DNA from: Christensenella sp. UBA3792
Lineage (GTDB): Bacteria; Bacillota; Clostridia; Christensenellales; CAG-138
DNA length: 28,801 nt
Assembly: GCA_002369195.1 (NCBI GenBank)
Contig: DFEW01000036.1
Coordinates: 1 to 28,801 of the forward strand
Direction: 5' to 3'
Part shown: positions 10,752-27,000 of the stretch, in pieces
Layout: the number at the start of each line of letters is the position of its first letter
How positions within the stretch are numbered: position 1 is the first letter of the stretch
Made by a program: the position numbers and the translations under genes
Notes under the pieces: generated by a model
What the model was told of the DNA's origin: nothing
The model's input: the letters and a program-made list of their open reading frames with translations, nothing else
Database searches by the model: none

Positions 10752-10757
10752 ATCCGG

Positions 10758-11723: not shown

Positions 11724-11735
11724 CATGTTCCTCCT

Positions 11736-12626
11736 TTACTCTTCCAGCAGTGCCCATGCGCGGTTCAGGACGCGCTTGGTGTTGGCAAGGACGATCTGCT
11801 CATCCTCGCCGGGACGCAGCGTGACTTCCATGGAAAGCACGTAGGGATGCTCCGCGTTGAAGAATCCCTCTTCCTTCAGCACGCGCAGGTAGTCCAGCAG
11901 TTCGGGGGTGTCGTTCGCGCTGTGCGGATAGCCGAACCGCGGATGCAGATCGCCGTATCCGTCAAAGCCCTTTTCGACCACGGCGTTTCCGAAATGGAAA
12001 TGCGTGATGTACGGGCGGAGCGTGCGGATGACGAACTGCGACGTCTCATACGTGGTGGGGAAGTGCGAAAGGTCGACCAGAAGCCCGAAATTGCTGTGCG
12101 TGGTCCGCATATCCGCGGCAAACTGCGCGGCAAGCGGCGCGGGACCGATCAGCGCGGCCTTGTCCATGTCGTAGTCGAACACTTCAAGCTCGACGTTCAT
12201 TCCCTTGGTTTTTGCGTAGTCGCATATGTTCCGGGTCGTTTTCAGAAGCTGCGCATACGCCTGCTCCTTGGTTGCCGGTTCCCATTTTCCCGCAAGGAAT
12301 GCGATGCCCTTTGCGCCGAGGTATTCCGCTTCGTCGACCGCTTCCAAGAGGGTGGCTTCCGCTTTCAGCCGCTCCTGCTCATCGAGCGCGTTCGGGTTCA
12401 GTTTCGGACCGAGCAGTCTCGGCTGCGCGCCGTAGCAGACCTTCAGATGGCTCTGCTCCAGGATCGCCTTCGCTTTTTCGTTGTCCGTGCCGAAGCCCTT
12501 CAGCTCGATTGCGTCGAAATAATCATCCCGCGCGATCGCAAGAAGACTGTCCATTGGCGCGCTTTTCGGATAGCTCATCCATTGGATGGTTCCGACCTGA
12601 AAATACTTGTGAATCGATTCTTTCAT
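11736..12626 (-). CDS. Sugar isomerase/epimerase, TIM-barrel, second type
   Basis: 296 aa from the ATG at 12626, chosen for the AGGAGG eight bases upstream (12640-12635); an ATG at 12683 would start inside the upstream hairpin. Likely metal ligands are Glu148 (ELEVFD), Asp185 and His188 (LLVDLSHFP), His211 (ITHFHFGN) and Glu267 (LSMEVTL), a complete set for the xylose isomerase-like TIM barrels. It is only distantly like the isomerase at 8144, so the operon has two different enzymes of this fold, perhaps acting on successive intermediates. It is separated from the upstream ComB-like gene by a terminator-like hairpin. Confidence 0.86.
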   Translation of the reverse strand: MKESIHKYFQVGTIQWMSYPKSAPMDSLLAIARDDYFDAIELKGFGTDNEKAKAILEQSHLKVCYGAQPRLLGPKLNPNALDEQERLKAEATLLEAVDEAEYLGAKGIAFLAGKWEPATKEQAYAQLLKTTRNICDYAKTKGMNVELEVFDYDMDKAALIGPAPLAAQFAADMRTTHSNFGLLVDLSHFPTTYETSQFVIRTLRPYITHFHFGNAVVEKGFDGYGDLHPRFGYPHSANDTPELLDYLRVLKEEGFFNAEHPYVLSMEVTLRPGEDEQIVLANTKRVLNRAWALLEE

Positions 12627-12657
12627 ATTGATTGCCTCCTGTCTTGATACGTGATTT

Positions 12658-12701
12658 GAAAAAAGAGGCGACAGGAATTCCATCGCCTTTGTGTGCCTCT
12701 T
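12658..12701 (-). terminator. Terminator or attenuator with two alternative stems
   Basis: Minus strand: AGGCGA (12688-12683) pairs with TCGCCT (12671-12666), with an inner GG(AATT)CC, followed by CTTTTTT, a plausible intrinsic terminator. A second perfect stem, AAGAGGC (12701-12695) with GCCTCTT (12669-12663), uses overlapping bases and includes part of the ComB-like stop codon. Only about 30 bp separate the T tract from the next ATG, with no promoter visible, so the hairpin may control read-through. Confidence 0.65.
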
Positions 12702-13497
12702 ATCGTTCGATGTCCGCGTCTATGATCACGCATCCGTGCCTGTCGATGCTGGACACATAGGGGACGAACCTTGAAATGTTTTCAGACGCGCACATGGCAA
12801 CGTCCTCCGTGCTGATATGCGCGGCGCACTTGATCGCGGTCGAAGACGCCTTGTAGGCCTCGAAAGTGTTCTCAAAGCCGTTCAAAAGGTGCAGGCAGAT
12901 CTTGATCGGGTCCATCAGTTCGTAGGGGCAGTTCTTTTCCTTCAGCAGATCGATGATGCGGCTTGCAAGCTTTGCCGTGCAGTACGCGTCGTCCAGCGTG
13001 GCGATGCGGCAGTCGTACCGTCCGGAATCCACGATGCAGATCGGGCGTCCCTCCTCGATCGCGCGGTTGACCACGCGCTTGACGACGGCGTCCATGTTCA
13101 GGACCGTTCCGACGTAGATGTCGTGGATGCCCTTGCCGTAGAGCTGCAGGATGCCGCGGGTGCCGTTTGTCGTGTGGAACAGGATCATCCGGTCCTTCAG
13201 CATGTTCATGGCTCTGACGCCGATCACGGACGGACTGCAGTCTGCCATGGGCGCGCAGTCGCCCGGCACGTCCTCGGCGCAGATCAGGTACTTGTCGCGG
13301 TCGATCGTTTCGTCTTCCGCCAGGATCTTTTCCTCGTCTTCGCACAGGCGGAGCTGCTTGACGCCCATATCAAAGAAGGAAACGACGGTTGCGCTTGCGC
13401 GGATGGCATCGATGTAGATGCAGATCGGGTTGTCTTCGGCAATGATTTCCGACGGCGTTAAAGCTGCCTGCAGCAAAACAAACGGTTTGTTGCTCAT
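12700..13497 (-). CDS. ComB family protein (2-phosphosulfolactate phosphatase-like)
   Basis: 265 aa from ATG 13497; ATG 13509 (four residues longer) is equally possible because GGGAG lies 2 bases before that start and about 14 before this one. ComB signatures are YIDAIRASATVV (29-40) and FHTTNGTRGI (107-116), with a DSGRYDCRIATLDDAYCTAKL block (about 157-177) equivalent to the family's third conserved region. Characterised ComB enzymes are magnesium-dependent acid phosphatases making sulfolactate for coenzyme M; bacterial relatives act on uncertain substrates. No coenzyme M genes are present, so here it may dephosphorylate another sugar-acid phosphate. It is first in the minus-strand sugar operon and divergent from the FucI-like gene. 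Confidence 0.82.
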   Translation of the reverse strand: MSNKPFVLLQAALTPSEIIAEDNPICIYIDAIRASATVVSFFDMGVKQLRLCEDEEKILAEDETIDRDKYLICAEDVPGDCAPMADCSPSVIGVRAMNMLKDRMILFHTTNGTRGILQLYGKGIHDIYVGTVLNMDAVVKRVVNRAIEEGRPICIVDSGRYDCRIATLDDAYCTAKLASRIIDLLKEKNCPYELMDPIKICLHLLNGFENTFEAYKASSTAIKCAAHISTEDVAMCASENISRFVPYVSSIDRHGCVIIDADIER

Positions 13498-13555
13498 AAA
13501 ACTGTACATTACTCCCTTTTTCTCTTTTCTACGTATATTAAAACAGGTACGAATA

Positions 13556-13569
13556 TGTGCTGACGCACA
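13556..13569. promoter_or_regulatory. Small inverted repeat in the divergent promoter region
   Basis: TGTGC (13556-13560) and GCACA (13565-13569) flank TGAC. It lies upstream of the ComB-like gene and could be a second operator half or a chance palindrome. Confidence 0.3.
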
Positions 13570-13585
13570 AAATGTAAATGAAATA

Positions 13586-13601
13586 TTGTTATATGGGCCA
13601 A
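13586..13601. promoter_or_regulatory. Candidate operator, site 1
   Basis: TTGTTATATGGGCCAA is near-palindromic and 13 of 16 bases match the site at 25672-25687. It covers the place of the -35 box and ends 12 bp before the -10 box at 13614. Binding by the CdaR/PucR-type regulator encoded at 25834 is an inference. Confidence 0.6.
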
Positions 13602-13613
13602 AGAAAAGCATAA

Positions 13614-13619
13614 TATAAT
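13614..13619 (+). promoter_or_regulatory. -10 box for the isomerase/aldolase/phosphorylase operon
   Basis: Perfect TATAAT, 36 bp before the GTG start. At 17-bp spacing the -35 position reads ATATGG, a poor match, which fits a promoter needing an activator bound at the overlapping operator. Confidence 0.6.
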
Positions 13620-13654
13620 TTTTTTGAAAATGAAGACAGCAGGAGGACAACTCT

Positions 13655-14857
13655 GTGGTAAATGTCTATCTTCTCTACAGCAAACTGGAAGCCGGTCGTC
13701 CGCCGCGCGAGGAAACGCTCGCATATCTTGCGCAGGTTTCGGCGCGCGCGGGGGAGACTTTGACGCCGACTTTTGACGGAACAGGCGTCGAACGGGAAGC
13801 GACGGCAGTCGTATTTGCCGTGACCGGAGGGACCGCCGAAGGGCTGAAGCTTCTGTATGACAAAGCGCCCGGCGTGCGCAGATGGCTGATCCTCAACGAA
13901 GGCAAGGGAAACGCGTTTTCCGCCTCCATGCAGATGGTGACGTTCTTGCAAGAGCGGAACGCCGCCGCCCGCATTCTGTCCGGCGATGCGCAAACGGTCG
14001 GGGACCTGTTGAAGGAAGAACTGCATCTTGCAAACGTGATCGACCGCTTTTCGCATCTTCGCGTCGGACAGATCGGCGCGCCGTCCGACTGGCTGATCTC
14101 GAAGGGCACGGACCGCGCGTTCTTTGAGCGGCTCGGCATGACATTTACCGATATTCCCATCGGCGAAGTGGAAGCGGAATACGAAAAGGGCGGCTATCCG
14201 GAGAATGCGTATACGGCGGCGCTGAAGGAAAAAGGATATGCGCCGCAGGAGACGGAGAAAGCCCTGAATCTGTACGGCGCGATCCGGCGCGTGTGCCTTG
14301 CGCACAACCTCGATGCGTTTACGATTCGCTGCTTCGATCTGCTGTTCTCGGTACACAGCGCGGGCTGCGCGGCGGTTTCCGTGCTGAGCGCGGAAGGCAT
14401 CTTTGCGGGATGCGAAGGCGACATGCCCTCGCTGCTTTCGATGGCGCTCCTGAGCTTTGCGGCGGAACGACCCGCCTTTATGTGCAACCCGAGCGCGATG
14501 GATCGCGAATCGAACGAAATGATTTTCGCGCACTGCACGATCCCGCTCAACATGCCGGACCGGTTCCGTCTGACCACGCATTTCGAATCGAACTCGAGCA
14601 TCGGCATTCGCGGGGAATTCGATCCGTGTCCCGTCACCGTATTCAAGCTGGCCGCGGACGGATCGCGCTGGTTTGCAAGCAACGGAGAGCTGCTGGACAA
14701 CCCGTCCTTTAGGAACTATTGCAGAACGCAGTTCCGGGTGCGGCTGGAGGAACCGGTCGGCACGTTCCTGAACGAACCGATCGGAAACCATTATCTGATC
14801 TGCCGCGGGCATTTCGCGGAGCGTATGAACCGCCTCTGCGCGATGCTGCAGCAATAA
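13655..14857 (+). CDS. L-fucose/L-arabinose isomerase-like protein (FucI/AraA C-terminal fold), GTG start
   Basis: 400 aa from GTG 13655, with AGGAGG at 13641-13646 eight bases upstream. The C-terminal half carries the metal-site pattern of the FucI/AraA superfamily: FAGCEGDMPSLL (Glu254, Asp256), FMCNPSAMD (275-283) and GNHYLICRGHF (His379). The N-terminal half is shorter than in true FucI (about 590 aa) or AraA (about 500 aa), so it belongs to the compact uncharacterised branch. Such enzymes use manganese to interconvert aldoses and ketoses, usually unphosphorylated. It is the first gene of a five-gene plus-strand operon with a BtpA-like protein, DeoC and two phosphorylases. The sugar is unknown. 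Confidence 0.8.
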   Translation: MVNVYLLYSKLEAGRPPREETLAYLAQVSARAGETLTPTFDGTGVEREATAVVFAVTGGTAEGLKLLYDKAPGVRRWLILNEGKGNAFSASMQMVTFLQERNAAARILSGDAQTVGDLLKEELHLANVIDRFSHLRVGQIGAPSDWLISKGTDRAFFERLGMTFTDIPIGEVEAEYEKGGYPENAYTAALKEKGYAPQETEKALNLYGAIRRVCLAHNLDAFTIRCFDLLFSVHSAGCAAVSVLSAEGIFAGCEGDMPSLLSMALLSFAAERPAFMCNPSAMDRESNEMIFAHCTIPLNMPDRFRLTTHFESNSSIGIRGEFDPCPVTVFKLAADGSRWFASNGELLDNPSFRNYCRTQFRVRLEEPVGTFLNEPIGNHYLICRGHFAERMNRLCAMLQQ

Positions 14858-14882
14858 ACAATAAAGAAAAGGAGAATCGTTT

Positions 14883-15692
14883 ATGAAAACATCCGAACTG
14901 AAAAGCATCTTCGGAACATCGAAGCCGATCCTCGGCATGATCCATCTGCCGCCGCTTCCGGGCTCGCCCAACTACTGCGGCAGCATGACGAAGGTGCTGG
15001 ATCACGCGCTGTTTGATGCGGACGTGCTGGTCAGATGCGGCATCGACGCCGTGATCGTCGAGAACCTCGGCGACTATCCATACTATCCCATGACGACCGA
15101 ACCCGAGACCGTTGCGGCGATGACGCGGGCGGCGCTCGAAATCAAGCGGCATTATAACGTTCCCATGGGGATCAATATCCTGCGCAACTCCTGGAAGTCT
15201 GCGCTCGCGGTCGCAAGTCTTGCCGACGCGCAGTTCATCCGTCTGAACGTGTTGACCGATGCGATGGTCACCGATCAGGGACCGATCAACGGCGAAGCAT
15301 ACCTTGCGATGCGCTACCGCAAGGCGATCGGCGCGGAGCACGTCAAGGTGTTCGCGGACATCTACGCCAAGCACGGCGGACCGATCGTCAGACGGGACAT
15401 GGCAACCGTCGCGCGGGAAATGATCCATCGCGGCATGGCGGACGCGCTGATCGTATCCGGAGAGGAATCCGCGTTCCCGCCGGCCAAGGATCAGATCGAT
15501 CTGGTCAAAAAGGCGGCGGGGGATACGCCGGTGTTTTTGGGCAGCGGAATCGGTCTGAACACGTTTGACTGCATTCTGCATGCCGACGGATCGGTATTCG
15601 GCTACGGCACCAAGCCGAGCGGCGACATGAGCGATCCCGTTGACGAGACGACCGTTCGGACATTCATGGATCGGGTACGGGGTATCCGATAA
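14883..15692 (+). CDS. BtpA/SgcQ family TIM-barrel protein
   Basis: 269 aa, normal for the family. The signature GMIHLPPLPGSP (18-29) is present, followed by GIDAVIVENLGD (about 54-65) and a C-terminal GSGIGLNT phosphate-binding-like loop (about 222-229). It has the look of a TIM barrel with a phosphate site. BtpA was named for a role in photosystem I in cyanobacteria, but most members, such as E. coli SgcQ, sit in sugar operons and have no proven reaction. Here it lies between a sugar isomerase and DeoC, supporting a carbohydrate role. AAAGGAGA precedes the ATG; the gap to the previous gene is 25 bp. Confidence 0.87.
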   Translation: MKTSELKSIFGTSKPILGMIHLPPLPGSPNYCGSMTKVLDHALFDADVLVRCGIDAVIVENLGDYPYYPMTTEPETVAAMTRAALEIKRHYNVPMGINILRNSWKSALAVASLADAQFIRLNVLTDAMVTDQGPINGEAYLAMRYRKAIGAEHVKVFADIYAKHGGPIVRRDMATVAREMIHRGMADALIVSGEESAFPPAKDQIDLVKKAAGDTPVFLGSGIGLNTFDCILHADGSVFGYGTKPSGDMSDPVDETTVRTFMDRVRGIR

Positions 15693-15719
15693 AAAATACA
15701 ATTTACAGGAGGAACAAAC

Positions 15720-16430
15720 ATGCAGGGCTTCTTTTCTATGCCGGAATCAAAGGAAATCATTGAACAGATCATTCCCAAAATCGATTACACGAGCGCGCTG
15801 GATCCGTTTTCCACATCCAAGGACGTCATCGATGCGTGCGAAGTCGTAAAGCGGTACGGATTTGCTACCGTTTGCGTCTATCCGACCTGGGTGAAGCTGG
15901 CGAAGGAACACATGGCGGGCTGCAAGTCCGGCATCCTTGTCACGGTCGGCTTCCCGCACGGATCGACGACGACGGAGGCAAAATGCGCGGAAACGCTGCA
16001 GGCCTTGAAGGACGGCGCAACGGAGATCGACATGGTCATTAATATTGCCAGATTCTTCGACGGCGACTATGACTATGTGAAGAACGACATTGCGGCGGTG
16101 GTGAAGGTATGCAGCGAATACCGCGTAGGCGTCAAGGCGATCCTGGAGGTCGGGTATCTTTCGGACGAACAGATCGTCAAGGCGGCGGAGCTTGCCGCGG
16201 AAGCGGGCGTGGAATTCGTCAAGACTTCGACCGGCTTCGGTCCGGGCCGTGCGACGATGCACAACATCGCGCTTTTGAAGCAGACGGTCGGCGATCGCTG
16301 CAAGGTCAAGGCGAGCGGCGGCGTCGCCAGTCTCGAGGATCAGTGGGCGTTCATTCAGGAAGGCGCTTCCCGCGTCGCGGGGCGCGGCGTGATTCTGGAG
16401 CAGCTCAACCGGATCGGATACGTCAAGTAA
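15720..16430 (+). CDS. deoC: Deoxyribose-phosphate aldolase (DeoC family)
   Basis: 236 aa. The class I aldolase residues are visible: the Schiff-base lysine in EFVKTSTGFGPG, the aspartate in TEIDMVINI, the lysine in VKAILEVGYL, and the KASGGV phosphate loop. The standard reaction cleaves 2-deoxyribose 5-phosphate to acetaldehyde and glyceraldehyde 3-phosphate. Family paralogues in gut bacteria can cleave other sugar phosphates, and the presence of two DeoD enzymes but no phosphopentomutase leaves the substrate open. AGGAGG is well placed before ATG 15720. The operon continues 13 bp later with the first deoD. Confidence 0.9.
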   Translation: MQGFFSMPESKEIIEQIIPKIDYTSALDPFSTSKDVIDACEVVKRYGFATVCVYPTWVKLAKEHMAGCKSGILVTVGFPHGSTTTEAKCAETLQALKDGATEIDMVINIARFFDGDYDYVKNDIAAVVKVCSEYRVGVKAILEVGYLSDEQIVKAAELAAEAGVEFVKTSTGFGPGRATMHNIALLKQTVGDRCKVKASGGVASLEDQWAFIQEGASRVAGRGVILEQLNRIGYVK

Positions 16431-16443
16431 GGAGGATATCTGC

Positions 16444-17166
16444 ATGAAACCGGGAAAGATCACCCATCACATCGAATGCAGTCCGGAGGATTTCGCAAAG
16501 ACCGTGCTCATGCCGGGCGATCCGCTCCGCGCCAAGATGATTGCGACGAACTTTTTGACGGACGTCGATCAGATCAATTCGATCCGCGGCATGCTCGGCT
16601 ATACCGGACTGTACAAGGGAAAGCGCATTTCGGTTCTCGCAAGCGGCATGGGACTGACCTCCATGGGCACGATGTCGTACGAGCTCTATAACATGTTCGG
16701 CGTCGAAACGATCATCCGCGTCGGAACCGCGGGCGGCATCGATCCCGCGCTCAAAGTGTTCGATCTGGTGATCGCGCAGGGCGCATGCACCGATTCGAAC
16801 TACGAGGAGACGTTCGAGCTTCCGGGCAGAACGGCGCCGATCGCGACGTACGAGCTGCTGGAGCGCGCGGCCAAGTACTGCCGGGAGAACGATATGCATC
16901 CGTACATCGGCAACGTCCTTTCCGCGCAGGCGTTCTATATCGAGGGCGGGATTCCGCGCCAGCTCGAATGGCGCAGGATCGGTCTTCTGGCGGTGGAGCA
17001 GGAAACCGCCGCGCTGTATCTGAACGCGATGCGGGCGCATAAGCGCGCGCTGAGCATCCTGACGATCTCCGATCTTCTGGAAACCCACGAAGTAACCTCC
17101 GCGTGGGAAAGACAGGAATCGGTGAAGGAAATGGTGCGCATCGCGCTCGAAGTCGCCGATTACTGA
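16444..17166 (+). CDS. deoD: Purine-nucleoside phosphorylase, DeoD type, copy A
   Basis: 240 aa, the hexameric DeoD length. Motifs: His in THHIECS (N-terminal, reaches the neighbour's site), MPGDPLRAK (phosphate site), SIRGMLGYTG, IIRVGTAGG (phosphate-binding arginine), ACTDSN, QAFYIEGG, VEQETAALY (ribose-binding Glu) and TISDLLETHE (Asp that protonates the purine). The usual Met before the ribose-binding Glu is Gln here. It converts nucleoside plus phosphate to base and pentose 1-phosphate. The gene is repeated immediately downstream; residues 1-143 are identical in the two copies. AAGGAGG precedes the ATG. Confidence 0.93.
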   Translation: MKPGKITHHIECSPEDFAKTVLMPGDPLRAKMIATNFLTDVDQINSIRGMLGYTGLYKGKRISVLASGMGLTSMGTMSYELYNMFGVETIIRVGTAGGIDPALKVFDLVIAQGACTDSNYEETFELPGRTAPIATYELLERAAKYCRENDMHPYIGNVLSAQAFYIEGGIPRQLEWRRIGLLAVEQETAALYLNAMRAHKRALSILTISDLLETHEVTSAWERQESVKEMVRIALEVADY

Positions 17167-17223
17167 GAATCTGCGAAGGCGAACGGGATCGCCGAGCAGG
17201 GAAGCGACAAGAAAGGAATTCAT

Positions 17224-17946
17224 ATGAAACCTGGAAAGATCACCCATCACATCGAATGCAGTCCGGAGGATTTCGCAAAGACCGTGCTCATGCCGGGCGA
17301 TCCGCTCCGTGCCAAGATGATTGCGACGAACTTTCTGACGGACGTCGATCAGATCAATTCGATCCGCGGCATGCTCGGCTATACCGGACTGTACAAGGGA
17401 AAGCGCATTTCGGTTCTCGCAAGCGGCATGGGACTGACCTCCATGGGCACGATGTCGTACGAGCTCTATAACATGTTCGGCGTCGAAACGATCATCCGCG
17501 TCGGAACCGCGGGCGGCATCGATCCCGCACTCAAAGTGTTCGATCTGGTGATCGCGCAGGGCGCATGCACCGATTCGAACTACGAGGAGACGTTCGAGCT
17601 TCCGGGCAGAACGGCGCCGATCGCGACGTACGAGCTGCTGGAGCGCGCGGCGGCGTATTGCCGCAGCAACGGGATCCGGCCGCACATCGGGAACATCCTT
17701 TCCGCGCAGGCGTTCTATATCGAAGGAGGGATTCCGCGCCAGCTCGAATGGAGAAAAGCCGGCGTCCTCGCGGTAGAAAACGAAACGGCAGCGCTCTATC
17801 TGAATGCCATGCGGGCGCACAAGCACGCGTTGAGCATCTGCACGGTCACCGATCTTCTGGAAAACCATGTGGCTGTAAGCGCGGCGGAAAGACAGGAATC
17901 GGTGAAGGAAATGGTGCGCGTCGCGCTCGAAGTCGCCGATTACTGA
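17224..17946 (+). CDS. deoD: Purine-nucleoside phosphorylase, DeoD type, copy B
   Basis: 240 aa; all catalytic blocks of copy A are kept (THHIECS, MPGDPLRAK, IIRVGTAGG, FYIEGG, TVTDLLENH). From residue 144 it diverges: for example VENETAALY instead of VEQETAALY, SICTVTD instead of SILTISD, and NHVAVSAAERQ instead of THEVTSAWERQ. SAAERQ and CTVTD are nearer to ordinary DeoD (CTVSD, AAERQ), so copy B may keep the parental specificity and copy A may have shifted. AAAGGA lies ten bases before the ATG. It is the last gene of the plus-strand operon and is followed by a strong hairpin. Confidence 0.93.
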   Translation: MKPGKITHHIECSPEDFAKTVLMPGDPLRAKMIATNFLTDVDQINSIRGMLGYTGLYKGKRISVLASGMGLTSMGTMSYELYNMFGVETIIRVGTAGGIDPALKVFDLVIAQGACTDSNYEETFELPGRTAPIATYELLERAAAYCRSNGIRPHIGNILSAQAFYIEGGIPRQLEWRKAGVLAVENETAALYLNAMRAHKHALSICTVTDLLENHVAVSAAERQESVKEMVRVALEVADY

Positions 17947-17981
17947 AACAAACAACCCATCCGAGATTCTTCCTCATGAAA

Positions 17982-18024
17982 GAGACCTCCGCTGGCGGAT
18001 TAGTGCACCGCCGACGGAGGTCTC
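17982..18024. terminator. Terminator between convergent operons
   Basis: GAGACCTCCG (17982-17991) and CGGAGGTCTC (18015-18024) form a 10-bp stem that continues, after a mismatch and wobble, into GGCGG/CCGCC. A loose T-rich tail follows on the plus strand (GTTTGTGTG) and TTTC on the minus. It probably serves both the deoD operon and the importer operon. Confidence 0.85.
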
Positions 18025-18043
18025 GTTTGTGTGTCCTGCGTGT

Positions 18044-18526
18044 TTATCTTTGGTGATCGTAATCGAGCTCCCTGCCCTCCTCGATCTCCTGCAAAAGACC
18101 GAGACTGATCGCATGCCGCCCGCCGATGTATTCGTTGGACAGCCACGCGTCCAGAATGTCGATTGCCTGAAACTCGCCGATGACGCGCCCGCCGAGGCAC
18201 AGCACGTTGGAATCGTTGTGCTGACGGGTCATGGCGGCGGAGTAGTGATCCGAAACCGCGCTCGCGCGAATGCCCGCAAAACGGTTTGCGACGATCGACA
18301 TGCCGATGCCGGTGGAGCAGATCAGAATGCCGCGCTTGAATTCGCCGCTTTGGATGCGCTTTGCGACCTGTGCCGCATAGTAGGGGTAGCGAACGATTTG
18401 CTCCGAGGAGCAGCCGATGTCCGTGTACGGAATGCCGAGCGCGTCGAGGTGCTCAAGCAGATACTGCTTCAGGCGGTATCCGCCGTGATCGCAGGCAATG
18501 ATGATCGGGTCCTTTCGATAGTCCAT
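18044..18526 (-). CDS. rpiB: RpiB/LacAB family sugar-phosphate isomerase
   Basis: 160 aa, close to the family length of about 150. The DHGG motif (Asp13, His14) binds substrate; the catalytic cysteine lies in LICSTGIGMSIVANR (Cys70), and HNDSNVLCLGGRVIG (103-117) is the usual second signature. The anion loop reads CSTG rather than the common CGTG, which could alter phosphate binding. The standard reaction is ribose 5-phosphate to ribulose 5-phosphate; LacAB and allose relatives act on hexose phosphates and some act on other substrates. It is the last gene of the importer operon, with GGAGG before the ATG and only 11 bp after the permease. Confidence 0.9.
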   Translation of the reverse strand: MDYRKDPIIIACDHGGYRLKQYLLEHLDALGIPYTDIGCSSEQIVRYPYYAAQVAKRIQSGEFKRGILICSTGIGMSIVANRFAGIRASAVSDHYSAAMTRQHNDSNVLCLGGRVIGEFQAIDILDAWLSNEYIGGRHAISLGLLQEIEEGRELDYDHQR

Positions 18527-18537
18527 GCAGTCCTCCT

Positions 18538-19446
18538 TCAGTCGTCGAAGTGCTTGCCCATGCCTGCGGGACCGCGCGCGATCTTATGGTTGATCAGCGC
18601 CATGATCAGCGTGAAGGCATAGGGGATGATCATCCAGAACTGGGACGGCGTGTCGGCGCTCTGGAACAGGGACTGGAGACAGTCGAAGAAGCCGAACAGG
18701 ATGCTGATTGCAGCGGCGATCAGCGGATTGCCGCCGCCGATATCGCCGATGACCATCGAGACATAGCCGCGGCCGCCGGACATATCGAGGATGAAGCGGT
18801 TCATTCTCGCCATAGACAGGTACGCGCCGGCAAGCCCCGCGAGCGCGCCGCAGAGCAGAACGCCGATGTACTTCATGCGGGTCGTGTTGATGCCGACCGA
18901 GTTTGCCGCGACCGGGTTCTCGCCGACCATCCGAAGCCGCAGACCGAAGGGCGTCTTATAGAGCACGATGTAGCTGATGATCACGATTGCGATCGCGATA
19001 TAGAACAGAATGTTCTGATCGGCGAGGATCGGTCCGACCAGCGGGATCTTTGCGAGGAACGTGTCGGAAAGCTTGGAGAAGGACTGGTATTCCGGAGAGA
19101 AGCCCGCGGATTTCCACACGATCTTCAAAACGAGCGCGCTTGCTGCGGTCCCCAGAAGGTTGATGCTGACGCCGGAAAGCGTTCCGTTGACCTTATGCGT
19201 GACATGCAGGAACGCATGCAGCAGGGAGATCGCCGCGCCGCCGAGGATCGCGAACAGCAGACCGAGCCACAGGTTGTTGAAAAAGTACACGGCGAGCGCG
19301 CCGCAGAAAGCTCCGGTAGCCATCATGCCCTCGCAGCCGAAGGAGACGACGCCGACGCGGGAGGAATAGATGCATGCCATGGAACCGAGAATGATCGGTA
19401 CGGACATTCGAATGGTTGCAGCGATGACGACTTGAACGATATTCAT
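18538..19446 (-). CDS. BMP-type nucleoside ABC importer, permease 2
   Basis: 302 aa, with hydrophobic segments along most of its length (about eight to ten helices). It belongs to the branched-chain/ribose permease family: VVSFGCEGMMATGAF near the N-terminus and MVGENPVAANSVGINTTRMKY in the coupling loop that meets the ATPase. It is shorter than its partner at 19462, as usual for the second permease (NupQ/YufQ type) of this importer class. It is 15 bp downstream of permease 1. Confidence 0.93.
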   Translation of the reverse strand: MNIVQVVIAATIRMSVPIILGSMACIYSSRVGVVSFGCEGMMATGAFCGALAVYFFNNLWLGLLFAILGGAAISLLHAFLHVTHKVNGTLSGVSINLLGTAASALVLKIVWKSAGFSPEYQSFSKLSDTFLAKIPLVGPILADQNILFYIAIAIVIISYIVLYKTPFGLRLRMVGENPVAANSVGINTTRMKYIGVLLCGALAGLAGAYLSMARMNRFILDMSGGRGYVSMVIGDIGGGNPLIAAAISILFGFFDCLQSLFQSADTPSQFWMIIPYAFTLIMALINHKIARGPAGMGKHFDD

Positions 19447-19461
19447 AAAAGCATGCCCCCC

Positions 19462-20592
19462 TTACTGATTCTGATCCGGCGCCGGGGAGGAACTTCCCGG
19501 TAAAGGATTCGACTTTGCGGCTTTTCTCTTTTTGAACCATTTCTTTGCGGAGAAAATGATCTGCGGCGCAGAGACGAACACAACGACCATGACCTGAATA
19601 ACGTCGACGAACTCGTACGGAATGTTGGTCGTCCGGTTGACCGTATAGGAGCCGGCACGCAGAACGCCGTACAGGAACGAGGAGAAGATGACGCCGAGCG
19701 GGTTGTACGCGCCGAGCGCCGCAACGGAAATGCCCTGGAACCCGTATCCGGCGACGGCGCCGTCGGAGAAGCGGGTGATCGGACCCTGCGTCATGATGGT
19801 TCCGCCGAGCGCTGCGACAAAGCCGCTGATCATGAACGCGATGTAGTACAGCTTGGTCGCTTTGATGCCGTACGTTTCGCCTGCGATGCGGTTGTTGCCG
19901 GCGATGCGGATCTTGTAGCCGAGGACGGTCTGATCGAGGATAAACGCCAGCACGACGGCGATGAGCAGTCCGATCAGATAGCCCGTCGTCAGCTGGCTCT
20001 TCGGAACGAGCTTCGATAAAAGCGCGGTGTCCTGAATGACTTCTGTTTGCGCAACGCCCGTGATCTTCGCGCGCAAAGGACCGTTCGCGAGATAGCTGCC
20101 GATATAGGTGAAGATGCTGTTGAGCATCATGGAAATGATGACTTCGTTCGCGCCGAGCCGAACCTTCAAAAAGCCGATGAACATTGCGATCAGCATACCA
20201 GTAAGACCGGCGACCAGCATGGTGAAGAGCACGTGCGGGATGTGCGGCAGGAAGGTGACGTAGTGACCGACGATCGCGCCGACAAGCGCGCCCATCATCA
20301 TCTGCCCTTCAATGCCGACGTTGACCAGACGGACGCGGAACGCGATCGCAAAGGCAAGGCCGGTGAAGAGCAGGGGCGTCGCTTCGCTGAAGATCAGCGC
20401 GATGCTCGTCTGCGAGCGGAAAGCGCCTTTGATCATACTGACGTAGGTTTCGATCGGCGAATATCCGGAGATCCAGATGATAATGCCGACCAGAACGATG
20501 GAGGCAAGGAAGGATACGGCGGAGATCATCACCTTGTACAGCGCCCGCTTCCATTGCTCATGACTGATGCGTAAAAACTTCTTTTCGTTCAT
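19462..20592 (-). CDS. BMP-type nucleoside ABC importer, permease 1
   Basis: 376 aa integral membrane protein of the NupP/YufP type. Markers are VNVGIEGQMMMGALVGAIVG near 110-130 and the coupling-loop motif RIAGNNRIAGETYGIKATKLYY, followed by GGTIMTQGPITRF. The C-terminal tail is basic (KKWFKKRKAAK) and then Pro/Ser rich, probably cytoplasmic. With permease 2 it forms the membrane channel. It starts 19 bp after the ATPase stop. Confidence 0.93.
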   Translation of the reverse strand: MNEKKFLRISHEQWKRALYKVMISAVSFLASIVLVGIIIWISGYSPIETYVSMIKGAFRSQTSIALIFSEATPLLFTGLAFAIAFRVRLVNVGIEGQMMMGALVGAIVGHYVTFLPHIPHVLFTMLVAGLTGMLIAMFIGFLKVRLGANEVIISMMLNSIFTYIGSYLANGPLRAKITGVAQTEVIQDTALLSKLVPKSQLTTGYLIGLLIAVVLAFILDQTVLGYKIRIAGNNRIAGETYGIKATKLYYIAFMISGFVAALGGTIMTQGPITRFSDGAVAGYGFQGISVAALGAYNPLGVIFSSFLYGVLRAGSYTVNRTTNIPYEFVDVIQVMVVVFVSAPQIIFSAKKWFKKRKAAKSNPLPGSSSPAPDQNQ

Positions 20593-20611
20593 GATAAACC
20601 TCGGCCTCCTC

Positions 20612-22132
20612 TTAAGCAGGGTCTGTTTCGGCTTTTCTGGCGCCGAGCATGAATTCGCCGAGTTCCTCTTTGGAATAATCCTGCGGCTTGCACTCCAGCA
20701 CGATCTCGCCGTTGAAAAGAACCAAAAGACGGTCGCTCATCTGATAGACTTCGTCAAGGTCCGCGCTGACCAGGAACACGCATTTTCCCTTGTCGCGGTA
20801 CCGGAAAATCTGCTCGTGGATATACTCGGAAGCGCTGACGTCGATGCCGCGCGTCGGCTGCGCAACAACGAGCACCTCGGAGTCTTCGGACAGCGCTCTC
20901 GCCATGATCAGCTTTTGCTGATTGCCGCCGGAGAGCGCTCTGGCAAGCACGTCGCTGTTCGGCGTCTTGACGTTGAATTCGCGGATGCATCTCTCCGTAA
21001 ATGCCGCGATCTTATCCTTCTGAACCAGACCGTGCTTTGCGGCAAACGGCTTGTCGTGGTGTCCGAGGATCGCGTTGTCCTTGAGCGACAGGTCCGGAAC
21101 GAGACCCATGCTGAGACGGTCCTCCGGCACGTGAACGACGCCGCGATGCAGGAACGTATACGCGTCGCCCGTTAAGGGTTCTCCGTTCAGCATCACCGTC
21201 ATGGAATCCGGGCTCGAAAGACCGGTGATCGCTTCGAGCAGCTGGGTCTGACCGTTGCCCTCCACGCCGGCAACGCCCACGATCTCGCCTTTGTGAATCT
21301 TAAAATGGATGTTTTTCAGTTTCTGAACGCCGTTTTCGACGATGCTCAGATTGCGGACCTCAAAGCCGACCTCTCCGATGTGTTCCGCTTCGCGGTGGAG
21401 GTCCAGATTGATGGAATGCCCGACCATCAGGTGCGCCAGCTCTTCGACGTTCGTTTCCGCCGGCTTGATGTCGTCCCGGATCAGAACGCCGTTGCGCAAA
21501 ACCATGATGCGGTCCGCGACGGCAAGGGTTTCCTTCAGTTTGTGTGTGATGATGATAATGCTGGTCCCGCTCTTGCGAAGGTTGCGCATCATCTCAAGAA
21601 GATCGTCGACTTCGCCGGGGGTCAGCACGGCGGTCGGCTCATCCAGAATCAGGACCTTCGCATCCCGGTAGAGCGCTTTCAGAATTTCGACGCGCTGCTG
21701 TTCACCGACGGACAGCTCCGAAACCTTGCTGTTGGGATCCAGATTAAAGTGAAACTTGTCAATCAGACCTTTGACGCGGGCGTATGCCTTTTTTCGATCG
21801 ATCAAAGGTCCGAACTTCGGTTCTGCCCCGGCAATGATATTGTCTAAAATACTGAACGCGGGAACAAGCATGAAATGCTGATGCACCATGCAGATGCCGA
21901 GGTGAATGGCATCCATGGGCTTTCGGATATCGACCTGCTTCTCACGAAAAAGAATCTCCCCTTCATCCGGATGATGAATCCCGTACAGGATGTTCATCAG
22001 CGTGGATTTGCCGGCGCCGTTTTCGCCGAGGAGGGAGAGGATCTCTCCCTCCCCGAGCGACAGGTTTACGGAATCCAGCGCTTTTGTTCCGGGAAAGTTT
22101 TTCGTGATACTACGCATTGAGACAATTTGCAT
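20612..22132 (-). CDS. BMP-type nucleoside ABC importer, ATPase (two nucleotide-binding domains)
   Basis: 506 aa, two fused ATPase domains as in NupA/YufO. Domain 1 is complete: Walker A GENGAGKST (37-45), signature LSVGEQQR, Walker B VLILDEPTA, and a switch histidine in IITHKL. Domain 2 is degenerate as usual in this class: Walker A-like GVEGNGQTQ, signature LSGGNQQK, and VLVVAQPTRGID with Gln replacing the catalytic Glu. One active site per dimer half is therefore expected. AAAGGA lies before the ATG. It is third from the top of the importer segment, after the lipoprotein. Confidence 0.95.
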   Translation of the reverse strand: MQIVSMRSITKNFPGTKALDSVNLSLGEGEILSLLGENGAGKSTLMNILYGIHHPDEGEILFREKQVDIRKPMDAIHLGICMVHQHFMLVPAFSILDNIIAGAEPKFGPLIDRKKAYARVKGLIDKFHFNLDPNSKVSELSVGEQQRVEILKALYRDAKVLILDEPTAVLTPGEVDDLLEMMRNLRKSGTSIIIITHKLKETLAVADRIMVLRNGVLIRDDIKPAETNVEELAHLMVGHSINLDLHREAEHIGEVGFEVRNLSIVENGVQKLKNIHFKIHKGEIVGVAGVEGNGQTQLLEAITGLSSPDSMTVMLNGEPLTGDAYTFLHRGVVHVPEDRLSMGLVPDLSLKDNAILGHHDKPFAAKHGLVQKDKIAAFTERCIREFNVKTPNSDVLARALSGGNQQKLIMARALSEDSEVLVVAQPTRGIDVSASEYIHEQIFRYRDKGKCVFLVSADLDEVYQMSDRLLVLFNGEIVLECKPQDYSKEELGEFMLGARKAETDPA

Positions 22133-22204
22133 ATCGTTTTCCTTTCAACCGTACAAAGATAAGCAGCCGGGGTGCGCTCAAAAAAGAGCGTCAGTTTCGG
22201 TTTT

Positions 22205-23311
22205 TCAGTTTCCCATCTTTACGCCGAACTGCGTAACATCCAGATGGTTCGCTGCGACCCACGCGTCGAGTTCGGTGAGGTCGTTGGGCGTGACGAGCTT
22301 GCCGTCCTTGATGGACTGACGGACGGCTTCGAGACAGTCGAGGATCTCCTGCGGGTACTGCAGCGCGATGCCGTCAAGACCGATCTCGCAGTAGCCGCTC
22401 GCAATACCGTTGCGGTGCGTGCCGGCTTCGAACGTGCCTTCCACAACCGCCTGCACGGCGAGACGGACGCCGACGTTCGTCAGCTTCAGAGAGGTGCAGA
22501 GACTGTAGTCATAGTCGGTCGTGCTCGGAGACGTGGAGATGAAGTATGCGCCATTCTCCTTGCAGGCCTCCAGGATGCCCAGAGCGCCCGCGCCGCAGTT
22601 GCCGGTGCAGATGTCCGCGCCGAGCGCGATGTTGTTGGAGGTAACTTCCTTCGCGGTAACGGGATCCGCAAAGCCGCCGATGACGGTGTAGCGGATCTCA
22701 ACGTCCGGATTGACGTACTTGACGCCCGCCATGTAGCCGGAAGCGCCCGCTCTCTGGTCCGGGTTGTCCATACCGATGCAGTAGCTGATCAGCGGCGTGT
22801 CGTTGGTCATCTTGGCAACGTCCGTATAGCCGCCGGCCGTCATGATGCCGGAGAGAACGCCGGAAAGGAACGCCTGTTCTGCGCTGATTGCGCCGATGCA
22901 CATGATGTTCGGAGCGTCGCAATAGCTGTCGATGAGGATGAACTTCTGATCCGGATAGTCCTTTGCAACCGCCAGGGTCGGCGTGTCGATGCCGGTACCG
23001 ACGGAGATGATGGCATCATAAACGCCGTCCTCCGCGTAACCGCGGATCAGAGCTTCCGTCGCAACGGGGTCGGTGTTGTCGACTTCCGCGCTGACGTACT
23101 CAAAGTCGTACAGTTCTTTTGCTTCCAGCAGGCCCTGCCAGGCTTCGTCGTTGTAACCGTTGTCGCCCTTCTTGCCGGACGTATAGGCGATCTTCACGGT
23201 CTTCTTTTCTCCGGCGTTGTCGGTGGACGGGTTGCTGGGCGTTGTCGCGGTGCAGGCAAACACGCCGAACGTCAGCATGAGCGCCAGAACGATCAAAACT
23301 ACCTTTTTCAT
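22205..23311 (-). CDS. BMP family nucleoside-binding lipoprotein
   Basis: 368 aa from ATG 23311, with GGAGG upstream; an in-frame ATG at 23365 would put 18 charged residues before the signal peptide and is unlikely. The lipoprotein signal MKKVVLIVLALMLTFGVFAC has Cys20 as anchor. The mature protein has the Bmp fold: GDNGYNDEAWQGL (49-61), DAIISVGTG, and FILIDSYCDAPNIMCIGAISAEQAFLSG, typical of PnrA/BmpA/NupN purine-nucleoside receptors. It is the substrate receptor of the importer, and its presence is the main reason to propose nucleosides as substrates. It follows the phosphorylase gene by 72 bp. Confidence 0.92.
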   Translation of the reverse strand: MKKVVLIVLALMLTFGVFACTATTPSNPSTDNAGEKKTVKIAYTSGKKGDNGYNDEAWQGLLEAKELYDFEYVSAEVDNTDPVATEALIRGYAEDGVYDAIISVGTGIDTPTLAVAKDYPDQKFILIDSYCDAPNIMCIGAISAEQAFLSGVLSGIMTAGGYTDVAKMTNDTPLISYCIGMDNPDQRAGASGYMAGVKYVNPDVEIRYTVIGGFADPVTAKEVTSNNIALGADICTGNCGAGALGILEACKENGAYFISTSPSTTDYDYSLCTSLKLTNVGVRLAVQAVVEGTFEAGTHRNGIASGYCEIGLDGIALQYPQEILDCLEAVRQSIKDGKLVTPNDLTELDAWVAANHLDVTQFGVKMGN

Positions 23312-23350
23312 TTCTTCTTTCTCCTCCATTGTTTTGTTTTCTATTGCCAA

Positions 23351-23363
23351 GGGCCTACGGCCC
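23351..23363. other. Intergenic hairpin upstream of the binding lipoprotein
   Basis: GGGCC (23351-23355) and GGCCC (23359-23363) around TAC, in the 72-bp gap between the phosphorylase and lipoprotein genes. Such a hairpin may protect the downstream mRNA and raise lipoprotein output; there is no T tract. Confidence 0.4.
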
Positions 23364-23383
23364 AATGGAACCTGTTTTGCGCC

Positions 23384-24220
23384 TCAAAGCGAGGGGTACC
23401 AATATTTCTTGCCGGCCGCTGCGAGCTTCTCGTCCCATCCGGCAATGATCTGCACGGCGCGGTTTGCAATCTGAATGCTCCGTTCGATCCCGCCGTACTG
23501 GAAGACGTCCTTCTTGCGGTTGGCCACGGCGGTGCAGACGCTTCCCGCGCGGAACCGGTACAGACCGGCGATGGTGAACAGCGCGGACGTTTCCATCTCG
23601 AAGTTCTTGACGCCCGCCTTCGACATATCGTCCACGATCGTGTCGATAAAGGACTGGCTGTAGCCGTTGTATCCGGGTCTGCCCTGTCCGCAGTACCAGG
23701 AGCCGGTCGAACAGGAGATGCCTACATGGTAGGGAATCTGAAGCTCCTCGGCCGCCTGCACCAATGCCGCCGTTACCATGTAATCGGCGACCGCGGGATA
23801 CGTCGGATCCACGTACAGATTGCTTGTCCCGTCATGCCGGACGGCGCCGGTGTGGATGATGACGTCGCCGCAGTTGATCTCGTCCTGAATCGCGCCGCAG
23901 GTGCCGACGCGGATCATCGTGTCGCAGCCGAGTCGAACCAGCTCTTCCACGGCGCTGGAAAGGGAACCGCCGCCCGCACCGGTCGAACAGGCGGATATTT
24001 TGACGCCGCCGACGGTGCCGGAATACGTCCTGTGCTCGCGGTAGTTGGCCACAAAGTGACTCTCATCCCAGTCCTCCGCGATCAGCGGGACGCGGTCCGG
24101 GTCTCCGGGAAGCAGACAGTAGCGCTCGATATCGCCCTGCTTGCAGCGGATATGGTACTGTGCGTTCTCTTCCATGACGGGTTCATTCGCTTTTGACTGC
24201 CATCTTTTAATCTCTTTCAT
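23384..24220 (-). CDS. Nucleoside phosphorylase, uridine phosphorylase family
   Basis: 278 aa from ATG 24220, with GGGAG upstream; ATG 24265 would extend 45 bp further into the upstream gene. Motifs: LLPGDPDRVPLIA (37-49, phosphate), MIRVGTCGAI (102-111), NFEMETSALF (206-215, with the paired Glu residues for ribose binding). It differs from the DeoD copies, being longer and nearer to Udp, so the locus covers two phosphorylase families. It likely acts on pyrimidine or modified nucleosides brought in by the adjacent importer. The first 14 bases overlap the end of the amidohydrolase gene. Confidence 0.9.
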   Translation of the reverse strand: MKEIKRWQSKANEPVMEENAQYHIRCKQGDIERYCLLPGDPDRVPLIAEDWDESHFVANYREHRTYSGTVGGVKISACSTGAGGGSLSSAVEELVRLGCDTMIRVGTCGAIQDEINCGDVIIHTGAVRHDGTSNLYVDPTYPAVADYMVTAALVQAAEELQIPYHVGISCSTGSWYCGQGRPGYNGYSQSFIDTIVDDMSKAGVKNFEMETSALFTIAGLYRFRAGSVCTAVANRKKDVFQYGGIERSIQIANRAVQIIAGWDEKLAAAGKKYWYPSL

Positions 24221-25631
24221 GTTCTTCTCCCTTTCCTGCGATTTGCTCATAGTATGCAGTTTCAAACCGTTTTTTCTCCGGCAGAACCGTTTCCTTCGTC
24301 CGTCGGACCGATGCGCGAAGCTCCGGCGTTCTTTTCCGTATCTCCACTTTGAGCGCGTCCTCGTCCATGCACAACAGCTTCCGGTCGCGCATCACGGCCT
24401 TGCCTCCGATCCATACGTCCGTCACGTCGAGCCGGTCCGCAAGGAGGATGCTCTGCAGCAGCGGATCGTAGCAGGGCTGATAGGCGAGTGCGGACAGATC
24501 CGCAAGGACCAGATCGGCGCACATGCCGGGCTTGACCGCCCCGCTGTTGAAACCGGCCGCCCTTGCGCCGTTCACGGTCGCCATGTTCCAGGCGTCCTGC
24601 ACGCGCATCCATTTGCGGGCATCCGGTTCGGTCATTCGCTGCAGAAGAACGGCGGAACGCAGAACGGTCAAAAGGTTCTGTCCGGTCGCGCAATTGGATC
24701 CATCCGATCCGATCGCGGCCGCTATGCCGTGCTCCCGATACGCCGCGATGTCCGCCCGTCCGCTTCCTAAAAAGAGATTGCCGGTCGGAATATGGATCAC
24801 CGTGCTGCCGGCGTCGGCGATGCGGCGAACCTGATCCTCGTTCAGGTACACGCAGTGCGCGAGCCCCGTCCGATCGGTCAGCAGACCGAATGCTTCCAGC
24901 AGCCGTACCGGATCGCGTCCGGCGCACACCGCGCTTGCCGCCTGCCAGCGCGTTTCCAACAGATGCGTATGGACGCCGAGACGGTATTTATCGCGGATGT
25001 CCGCCGCGACCGCAAGCGCCTGTTCGCTCGCCCGCTGCGGCGCGTTGAGCGCGCAGAGCATCTGCAGCGTACCGTCGGGATCGTGCCAGCGGCCGACCCA
25101 GTCGTCGTACCGGTCCGCCATGTTCTGCACGGAAGACGGCGTCCGGTCTGTGGACGGGCGCATTCCGCACAGCGCGCGGTCGTCGCCGATATCCGAGATC
25201 ATGGGCGCGATGGCAGCTCGAAAGCCCGTTTGCCGATAGGCGCCTGAGATCGCGTCAACCCTGTCCGCGTGCGGAATGTGATCGATGCAGGCGGTCACGC
25301 CCGCGTGCAGCATCTCCGCAATCCCCAGATATGCAGAAAGCACCGCTTCCTCGTTGCCCATCAGACCGCCCAAACCGATGGTATCGGACGACCAGACCTC
25401 GAGGGGTTCTCCCCAAGCAGTGCCTTTCCAAAGATTGCTGTATGAATGGTAATGCGCATTCACCATACCGGGCAGCAGAAGCTTTCCGCGCGCGTCGAAC
25501 GTTTCCTCATTCGGGCACGGCGCGAGCAATTCGGCAACCTCAGCAATCTTTCCGTTTTCAACACGCACATCACGCTTGCTGCAGCGATCCGCTTGGGTGT
25601 TGTCGGGCGTCAGACAATGTTGAATCAGCAT
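24207..25631 (-). CDS. Amidohydrolase/deaminase (SsnA/cytosine deaminase/chlorohydrolase branch)
   Basis: 474 aa. A metal-dependent TIM-barrel hydrolase with the full mononuclear metal set: NAHYH (His60, His62), THLLE (His223, catalytic Glu226), LAHCVYL (His259) and GSDGSN (Asp310). HLLE with a single metal is the arrangement of aminohydrolases that deaminate purine or pyrimidine rings and S-adenosylhomocysteine-like nucleosides. N- and C-terminal beta segments form the small sandwich domain (DARGKLLLPGMVNAH; GMCADLVLADL). As first gene of the nucleoside-importer operon it probably deaminates the imported nucleoside or the freed base. AGAGGT lies before ATG 25631. Confidence 0.87.
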   Translation of the reverse strand: MLIQHCLTPDNTQADRCSKRDVRVENGKIAEVAELLAPCPNEETFDARGKLLLPGMVNAHYHSYSNLWKGTAWGEPLEVWSSDTIGLGGLMGNEEAVLSAYLGIAEMLHAGVTACIDHIPHADRVDAISGAYRQTGFRAAIAPMISDIGDDRALCGMRPSTDRTPSSVQNMADRYDDWVGRWHDPDGTLQMLCALNAPQRASEQALAVAADIRDKYRLGVHTHLLETRWQAASAVCAGRDPVRLLEAFGLLTDRTGLAHCVYLNEDQVRRIADAGSTVIHIPTGNLFLGSGRADIAAYREHGIAAAIGSDGSNCATGQNLLTVLRSAVLLQRMTEPDARKWMRVQDAWNMATVNGARAAGFNSGAVKPGMCADLVLADLSALAYQPCYDPLLQSILLADRLDVTDVWIGGKAVMRDRKLLCMDEDALKVEIRKRTPELRASVRRTKETVLPEKKRFETAYYEQIAGKGEEHERD

Positions 25632-25653
25632 AATAACCTCTTATTTCAAATAT

Positions 25654-25659
25654 ATTTTA
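25654..25659 (-). promoter_or_regulatory. -10 box candidate for the importer operon
   Basis: Minus strand TAAAAT (25659-25654), exactly 12 bp downstream of the candidate operator, with GAAAAG just before it, the same arrangement as at 13602-13619. An alternative start, TTGTTC-16 bp-TAATAC, lies further upstream (about 25762-25735). Confidence 0.45.
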
Positions 25660-25671
25660 TCTTTTCCGCGG

Positions 25672-25687
25672 TTGTTCCATGGACCAA
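25672..25687. promoter_or_regulatory. Candidate operator, site 2
   Basis: TTGTTCCATGGACCAA is a near-perfect 16-bp palindrome (two non-pairing positions) in the 202-bp region between the amidohydrolase and its divergent regulator. It matches site 1 (13586-13601) at 13 of 16 bases. Confidence 0.65.
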
Positions 25688-25833: not shown

Positions 25834-27000
25834 ATGAAACATTTTACTTCCAATTCCATAGAAACGATGGTCTCGCTGCTGTCGGAAATCAGCGACCTGC
25901 AGGTCGATATGCTGGACGACAATGCGGTTTATCTGTCGTCGGCCGACGCATCCAAAATCGGACAAACGGATCCGGTTGCAGCGCAGATGCTTTCGGAAAA
26001 CCTGAATGAGCGTTACCACAACCTGCCGGGCGAGCAGGAGCGCGTGGCTTACTATATTGTCATGTGGCACAACAATCAAAAGATCGGCGCGTTCCGCCTG
26101 ACGGGACCGCTGGAAAAGATCGACGCCTGCAAAAAAGTGATTCAAACGGTCTCGTCACTGCTCATCGAGGACCATTTCTATAATGAAAGAGAACGGATGA
26201 AAGCCAGCTCGATCGCGATCATCATCGACGAGTGGTTCCATCTGACGCCGGACTCCGACTGCTCGGAGTTCTATGAACGCGCGAAGATCACCGGCATCGA
26301 CCTGAATCTGCCGCGGGTCGTCGTGCAGATGCACATCCATAATCTGCAGCGCTTGCCCAACGAGCCCGGAAAACCGCAGCACAACACGCTGGGAAGACTG
26401 GCGGACGTGCTGTTCAATCTGATGCTGAACCACATCGACCGGGAACGGAACGATTACTGCGTCAGCGCAGGAAACGACTTCGTCCTGCTGCTCGCCGTTT
26501 CGGACCTCAAGGAGGCGAAGAAGCTGATCGAACAGCTGAAGTATTCCATCGAGCGCCGGTACGCGGTTTCCGTGTTCTCCGGATTCAGCCCCGTGATGAC
26601 GGATTTTCGAACCGTCGGCGCAGGGTACCGGTTTGCGCAGCTCGCGACGCGCGTCGCCCGCAGCCAGAATAAGCCGTTTGCGTTCTACGACGACCTTTCG
26701 ATGGAGTTGCTTCTTTCGAACATCCCTCCGTCGGTCAAGCAGGATTATGTCAGCAAGGTCTATCAGGGCTGCACGCCGGCGGAGATTCGTGAGTGGACGA
26801 ATCTGCTTGCGGTCTACTTCAAGTGCAACGGCTCGCTGAACGAGACGGCCAAGCAGCTGTACCTGCACAAGAACACGCTGCAGTACAAGCTGTCGAAAAT
26901 CTTTGAACGCACCGGCTTTGATCCGCGCAACCGCATCGACTGCGTGACGCTGTATCTGGCGAACTACATCGTTCTGGAATACGATCCGGGCGTCTCGTAA
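25834..27000 (+). CDS. CdaR/PucR-type transcriptional regulator
   Basis: 388 aa. The C-terminus (about 325-382) is the PucR/CdaR helix-turn-helix: NGSLNETAKQLYLHKNTLQYKLSKIFERTGFDPRNRID, with the family hallmark HKNTLxYxLxKI. The middle third resembles the GGDEF-like CdaR segment, and the N-terminal 120 residues form a sensing domain (AYYIVMWHNNQKIGAFRLTG) like sugar-diacid recognition or GAF/PAS-type folds. Family members usually activate catabolic operons on binding a small molecule. It is divergent from the importer operon, so control of that operon and of the linked sugar operons is expected. The ribosome site AAGAAGGA lies 15 bases before the ATG, longer than usual, suggesting weak translation. 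Confidence 0.87.
   Translation: MKHFTSNSIETMVSLLSEISDLQVDMLDDNAVYLSSADASKIGQTDPVAAQMLSENLNERYHNLPGEQERVAYYIVMWHNNQKIGAFRLTGPLEKIDACKKVIQTVSSLLIEDHFYNERERMKASSIAIIIDEWFHLTPDSDCSEFYERAKITGIDLNLPRVVVQMHIHNLQRLPNEPGKPQHNTLGRLADVLFNLMLNHIDRERNDYCVSAGNDFVLLLAVSDLKEAKKLIEQLKYSIERRYAVSVFSGFSPVMTDFRTVGAGYRFAQLATRVARSQNKPFAFYDDLSMELLLSNIPPSVKQDYVSKVYQGCTPAEIREWTNLLAVYFKCNGSLNETAKQLYLHKNTLQYKLSKIFERTGFDPRNRIDCVTLYLANYIVLEYDPGVS

Follow-up and report, generated by a model that had tools for sequence, protein, structure and literature searches.

Mirror-image sites at two promoters of a nucleoside-type gene cluster as predicted operators of one CdaR/PucR-type regulator in Christensenella sp. UBA3792

Two 16-bp sites that stand in mirror image at the same distance from the -10-like boxes of two promoters are probably the operators of one local CdaR/PucR-type activator, which judging from the sequence would turn on an importer/deaminase operon and a phosphorylase/aldolase operon together. 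The sites lie in a 28,801-bp stretch of DNA from Christensenella sp. UBA3792 (contig DFEW01000036.1), the whole of which was analysed and is referred to here as the window. A two-promoter regulon of this sort is ordinary in kind and new in detail. For CdaR/PucR-type regulators only a small number of binding sites is known. A predicted operator whose regulon is defined by two promoters makes it possible to test the site, its orientation and the mechanism directly, and also helps to find out what an uncharacterised nucleoside-type cluster responds to.

The two sites and their promoter boxes

A first-pass annotation of this DNA had reported both sites, and their sequences and coordinates stand as it gave them (Table 1). 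We could likewise reproduce the 13 of 16 bases that the sites share when compared on the plus strand, the 12-bp spacing to the TATAAT at 13614 and the minus-strand TAAAAT at 25659, and the distance of about 147 bp from site 2 to the start of the regulator gene (146 bp lie in between). The annotation had also given the two promoters an identical geometry, and here our analysis differs, as the sites read along transcription are mirror images of each other with an agreement of 11/16. A sigma-factor element would have to keep one orientation, so that this arrangement speaks against one. Both sites had been described as near-palindromes, which is true of site 2 with 7 of 8 positions paired but not of site 1 with 4 of 8. 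The spacer element GAAAAG does occur in both 12-bp spacers, but at different offsets and therefore out of register, and the copy at site 1 reads GAAATC in a relative of the same genus (G062, below).

At both promoters the hexamer located 17 bp above the -10 box is poor (ATATGG at site 1, CCATGG at site 2). The ATATGG agrees with the poor -35 already noted for the 13.6-kb promoter; however, the promoter scan also found TTGTTA-17-CATAAT at site 1 as an alternative promoter (9/12), so that a missing -35 is firm for site 2 only. At site 2 the consensus scan returned no promoter, its single match elsewhere lying on the other strand.

Table 1 Positions of the predicted operators, promoter boxes, operons and regulator gene in the window, with the corresponding sites of the same-genus genome G062
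Feature	Position	Strand	Remarks
Site 1, TTGTTATATGGGCCAA	13586-13601	+	CCAA end toward the -10 box
-10-like box TATAAT of the FucI-like operon	13614-13619	+	12 bp from site 1
Site 2, TTGGTCCATGGAACAA (minus-strand reading)	25672-25687	-	Mirror image of site 1 when read along transcription
-10-like box TAAAAT of the deaminase/importer operon	25659-25654	-	12 bp from site 2
G062 site 1, TTGTTACATAGGCCAA			12 bp to TATAAT; 14/16 against the source genome
G062 site 2, TTGGTCTATGGAACAA			12 bp to TAAAAT; 15/16 against the source genome
Second palindrome, TGTGCTGACGCACA	13556-13569		5/7 pairs; ComB/FucI intergenic region; site-matrix rank 109 of 28784
Operon 1 (predicted from gene spacing)	13655-17946	+	FucI-like, BtpA family, DeoC, two phosphorylase-superfamily genes
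Operon 2 (predicted from gene spacing)	18044-25631	-	Amidohydrolase, uridine-phosphorylase-like, Bmp, ABC ATPase, two permeases, RpiB
CdaR/PucR-type regulator	25834-27000	+	Diacid_rec, GGDEF_2, HTH_30; predicted to bind sites 1 and 2

When the two intergenic regions were compared freely, their 16-mer similarity was unremarkable by itself: the best common 16-mer had a P of 0.0555 by score, and an identity of at least 13/16 anywhere in both regions had a P of 0.33. In a second form of the test, 16-mers equidistant from TATAAT-like boxes (at least 5/6 matching) were compared in direct or inverted orientation against first-order Markov shuffles. In the source genome (G000) sites 1 and 2 come out of this anchored test as the best match and were equalled by 4 of 6000 shuffles, an earlier and smaller run having given 0 of 1500. 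The best match was equalled by 0 of 6000 shuffles in G062 and by 5 of 6000 in G091, a genome of another genus, for which the count was 13 of 3000 when its full 409-bp region was used. It is inverted in all three genomes, at a spacing of 12 bp in G000, 12 bp in G062 and 16 bp in G091. Six other promoter pairings (four in G000, two in G091) were equalled by 195-691 of 1500 shuffles. Real upstream regions of distant regulator homologues gave 1176 pairs, homologous pairs included and 473 of them without a usable pair of boxes, and six of the 1176 reach the score of the window.

Related genomes and the reach of the motif

The regulator finds matches at E 0.001 or better in 24 of 103 genomes of the family, the source genome included, and its identity exceeds 28% in just three of the 103, namely G000 itself, G062 (91%) and G091 (42%). 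The same two relatives were recovered from GTDB contigs among the best 80 of 144 matches. In all three cluster-bearing genomes the gene cluster is found together with a CdaR/PucR-type gene divergent from the deaminase gene. G062 has the gene order of the window and keeps both sites (Table 1). G000 and G062 are not independent samples, and their alignments around the sites, which take in the gene edges, show identities of 80% and 74%. As many as 44% of 16-column windows reach 14 identities, which is the level of site 1 between these genomes; conservation of the sites between the two is no higher than that of the surrounding DNA and is weak when taken alone. In a single case, at position 10, a G/A difference between G000 and G062 occurs at both sites and keeps the sites alike within each genome.

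In G091 the cluster genes are rearranged and its two intergenic regions hold no close match to the window motif. Its best anchored pair, CCAGATGCCAAATGCG and CTGGATACCAAATTCG, is inverted with each member 16 bp from its box, and has a P of 0.115 when the boxes are not used as anchors. The arrangement is that of the window, with GCCAAA on the FucI side and a mirrored ACCAAA on the deaminase side, and the half-site TTTGGY is common to the window pair and this diverged pair. A matrix built from the four G000 and G062 sites ranks the G091 sites first in their own intergenic regions, and 10th and 30th in the 20-kb locus. The HTH cores of the G000 and G091 regulators are identical at 41 of 57 positions, including HKNTLQYKL, and their sensor parts at 33 of 140. 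The conservation in relatives that the first-pass annotation had looked to is therefore found in part: G062 keeps both sites, though not above their surroundings, and G091 shares TTTGGY within a motif that is otherwise different.

A motif scan of the source genome and its relatives had also been proposed, and across the 103 family genomes it places exact TTGKTMYATRGRMCAA only at the two G000 promoters (in a genome 73.6% complete) and the two G062 promoters. With up to one mismatch the same genomes contain 95 strand matches against 114 for a reversed control pattern, which puts the motif at chance level away from the cluster. Similarly the G091 motif is exact solely at its own two promoters in the three genomes searched. 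As these motifs were built from the sites, exact matches there follow by construction and only the absence elsewhere is informative. G091 also has a near match to the window motif with one mismatch, TTGATCCATGGAACAA, outside the cluster on contig C4 and beside lgt- and feoB-type genes, and on account of these neighbours we took it as chance. Another site-like sequence, TTGTCATGTGGCACAA at 26057-26072, lies within the regulator coding sequence and is identical in G062, where coding constraint (VMWHNN) has probably kept it.

The 330-bp regions upstream of 78 distant regulator homologues show no enrichment of TTTGG (38, with 46.3 expected), and the half-site is thus not shared by the family as a whole. 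Four other words, TACAGA, GTAACA, CTGTAA and CTGTTC, occur in 2.5-3.2 times as many of these 78 upstream regions as in shuffles, and it is possible that they represent the operator of a different CdaR-like subfamily.

The divergent ComB-like operon had been suggested as a further target, and this was not supported by our analysis. Pairings of the ComB promoter were equalled by 516 (with FucI), 195 (with AmHyd) and 265 (with PucR) of 1500 shuffles in G000 and by 691 of 1500 in G091, and the palindrome in this region has rank 109 of 28784 with the site matrix (Table 1). A relaxed form of the pattern does match at the ComB promoter when one mismatch is allowed, but neither the matrix rank nor the anchored pairs speak for a third operator there. 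The palindrome itself sits in a 38-bp block (13534-13571) that is identical in G062 and close to the likely ComB -35, and is perhaps the site of another regulator.

The regulator and its predicted mode of action

The regulator has a C-terminal HTH_30 domain (64.6 bits, cut-off 27) together with GGDEF_2 (34.6 bits, cut-off 24.5) and Diacid_rec (35.3 bits, cut-off 23.6). The NCBIfam model for the CdaR equivalog (NF008550) scores 51.2 bits on residues 11-377 against a cut-off of 612, and the protein is accordingly not classed as CdaR itself. A Pfam scan of 30 window ORFs gave no other protein with an HTH domain, and the regulator is encoded divergently from the deaminase gene in the three cluster-bearing genomes, which makes it the natural binder of the sites, and we infer from this that it binds sites 1 and 2. 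The earlier proposal of one regulator for both operons is thus supported with respect to the common site, through the anchored tests in three genomes and the restriction of exact matches to these promoters, while the binding step is a prediction. Metagenome proteins include 24 matches to the regulator at E 1e-40, of which P0018 is 78% and P0019-P0023 are 40-44% identical to it.

Escherichia coli CdaR (SdaR) has the same layout of Diacid_rec, GGDEF-like and HTH_30 domains, but is associated with galactarate/glucarate genes whereas those here are of nucleoside type. The Bacillus subtilis PucR consensus contains TTGG. Our literature search for the CdaR operator and for PutR and AdeR sites returned PMC7652997 alone as relevant, and in passages of that paper the CdaR binding site is called undetermined in 2020, the PucR-type regulators studied are described as activators (B. 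subtilis PucR acts as a repressor as well), and PutR, AdeR and GabR are reported to bind inverted repeats of 17, 24 and 21 bp respectively. The same passages present B. subtilis PucR as a PucR-type regulator of purine catabolism, which is a likeness to the present case, but describe its site as not palindromic (PMC7652997). A parallel in arrangement is Corynebacterium glutamicum GabR, there described as a PucR-type local activator with inverted-repeat sites whose gene is divergent from the catabolic operon gabTDP and whose binding was mapped to the region from -87 to -23 relative to the gabT start. Unlike the window regulator it is without a GGDEF-like domain, and its two 21-bp sites lie next to each other at a single promoter (PMC7652997), whereas in the window two promoters separated by 12 kb have a single 16-bp site each.

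We propose that a regulator dimer would lie over the -35 position with its centre near -33, assuming a transcription start about 7 bp past the -10 box, and would there stand in for the weak -35 hexamer. A centre near -33 is unusual for an activator site. The inducer bound by the regulator is probably a nucleoside or its sugar product, and binding of this inducer would switch on both operons together. Activation by a dimer over the -35 is favoured because the PucR-type regulators studied are activators and because PutR, AdeR and GabR bind inverted repeats.

The main rival to activation is that the same regulator represses from both sites, with an operator that covers the -35 and blocks RNA polymerase until the inducer causes its release. 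A centre near -33 does overlap the -35 position, at site 1 a promoter with TTGTTA-17-CATAAT could work without an activator, and B. subtilis PucR also represses according to a passage of PMC7652997. At site 2, however, CCATGG occupies the -35 position and the consensus scan finds no promoter, and the other PucR-type regulators named in that passage are activators; repression at both sites therefore appears unlikely to us. It has also to be considered whether a different transcription factor encoded elsewhere binds both sites while the adjacent regulator controls something else, as the presence of the distinct palindrome TGTGCTGACGCACA in the same intergenic region as site 1 might suggest. This we consider quite unlikely, given that the exact motif is found nowhere else in the 103 family genomes, as expected for a local regulator, that the 30 window ORFs scanned contain no second HTH domain and that cluster and regulator occur together.

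Finally the resemblance could be accidental, with AT-rich promoter regions sharing a 16-mer by chance and the G062 copy explained by common descent. The unanchored values for G000 and G091 (0.0555 and 0.115), a G000-G062 site conservation that does not exceed background and the six of 1176 real upstream pairs that score as high would all be in line with this. Set against them are the anchored tests in three genomes, one of which belongs to another genus and has its own diverged pair, and on this evidence chance is a very improbable explanation.

The gene cluster and its possible pathway

The two operons likely serve nucleoside import and breakdown. The first protein of operon 1, which we take to be FucI-like, has no Pfam match and a weak match to SftI (sulfoquinovose-isomerase). 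DeoC and the first phosphorylase of operon 1, which is of the DeoD type, score above their model cut-offs, as does RpiB of operon 2. For the deaminase-type amidohydrolase of operon 2 the best NCBIfam model is 5'-deoxyadenosine deaminase, with a score below cut-off, and the uridine-phosphorylase-like protein falls just below its own. A divergent run of genes at 8144-13509 encodes a ComB-like phosphatase, two xylose-isomerase-like TIM barrels, a 2-hydroxyacid dehydrogenase and a split transketolase, and as relatives of all of these are also present in the G091 cluster the run is probably part of the same pathway.

A wider and more tentative reading, which we regard as possible rather than probable, is that a small CdaR-like clade controls an undescribed route of nucleoside-sugar breakdown via mirror-image operators that replace the -35, with TTTGGY kept across genera while the sensor and the remainder of the operator diverge. 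Such a route might comprise the importer, the deaminase, three phosphorylases, the FucI-like isomerase, BtpA, DeoC and RpiB, and perhaps the split transketolase and the ComB-like phosphatase. Literature searches for BtpA with nucleoside phosphorylase and for ComB with nucleoside or transketolase found no paper, and no known RNA family was detected in the window at gathering threshold.

Beyond the source genome the cluster was found only in G062 and G091 among all of our family, class, order, phylum and contig searches. These comprised regulator searches of the 103 family genomes, 391 class genomes (E 1e-50), GTDB contigs (best 80 of 144) and viral contigs, the last without a match, as well as searches with the FucI-like protein in 103 family and 398 phylum genomes and with the phosphorylase in 396 order genomes (E 1e-70). 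A further 19 neighbourhoods of FucI-like genes, drawn from 18 genomes (all 5 remaining family genomes with matches and 13 of the 26 phylum genomes with matches), contained no match to BtpA, DeoC, ComB, the amidohydrolase or the regulator. Seven of the 19 have importer-type ABC and permease genes next to the FucI-like gene, six of these together with Bmp, and these six loci, where the rest of the cluster is absent, hint that the substrate of the FucI-like protein is an imported compound of nucleoside type.

The tandem phosphorylase genes of operon 1 (16444-17166 and 17224-17946) are identical at 396 of their first 400 bases and at 264 of the remaining 323. The two copies in G062 agree at 349 of 400 and 241 of 320 bases, and the near-identity of the 5' parts in the window against the divergence of the G062 copies suggests a recent gene conversion of the 5' part in the window.
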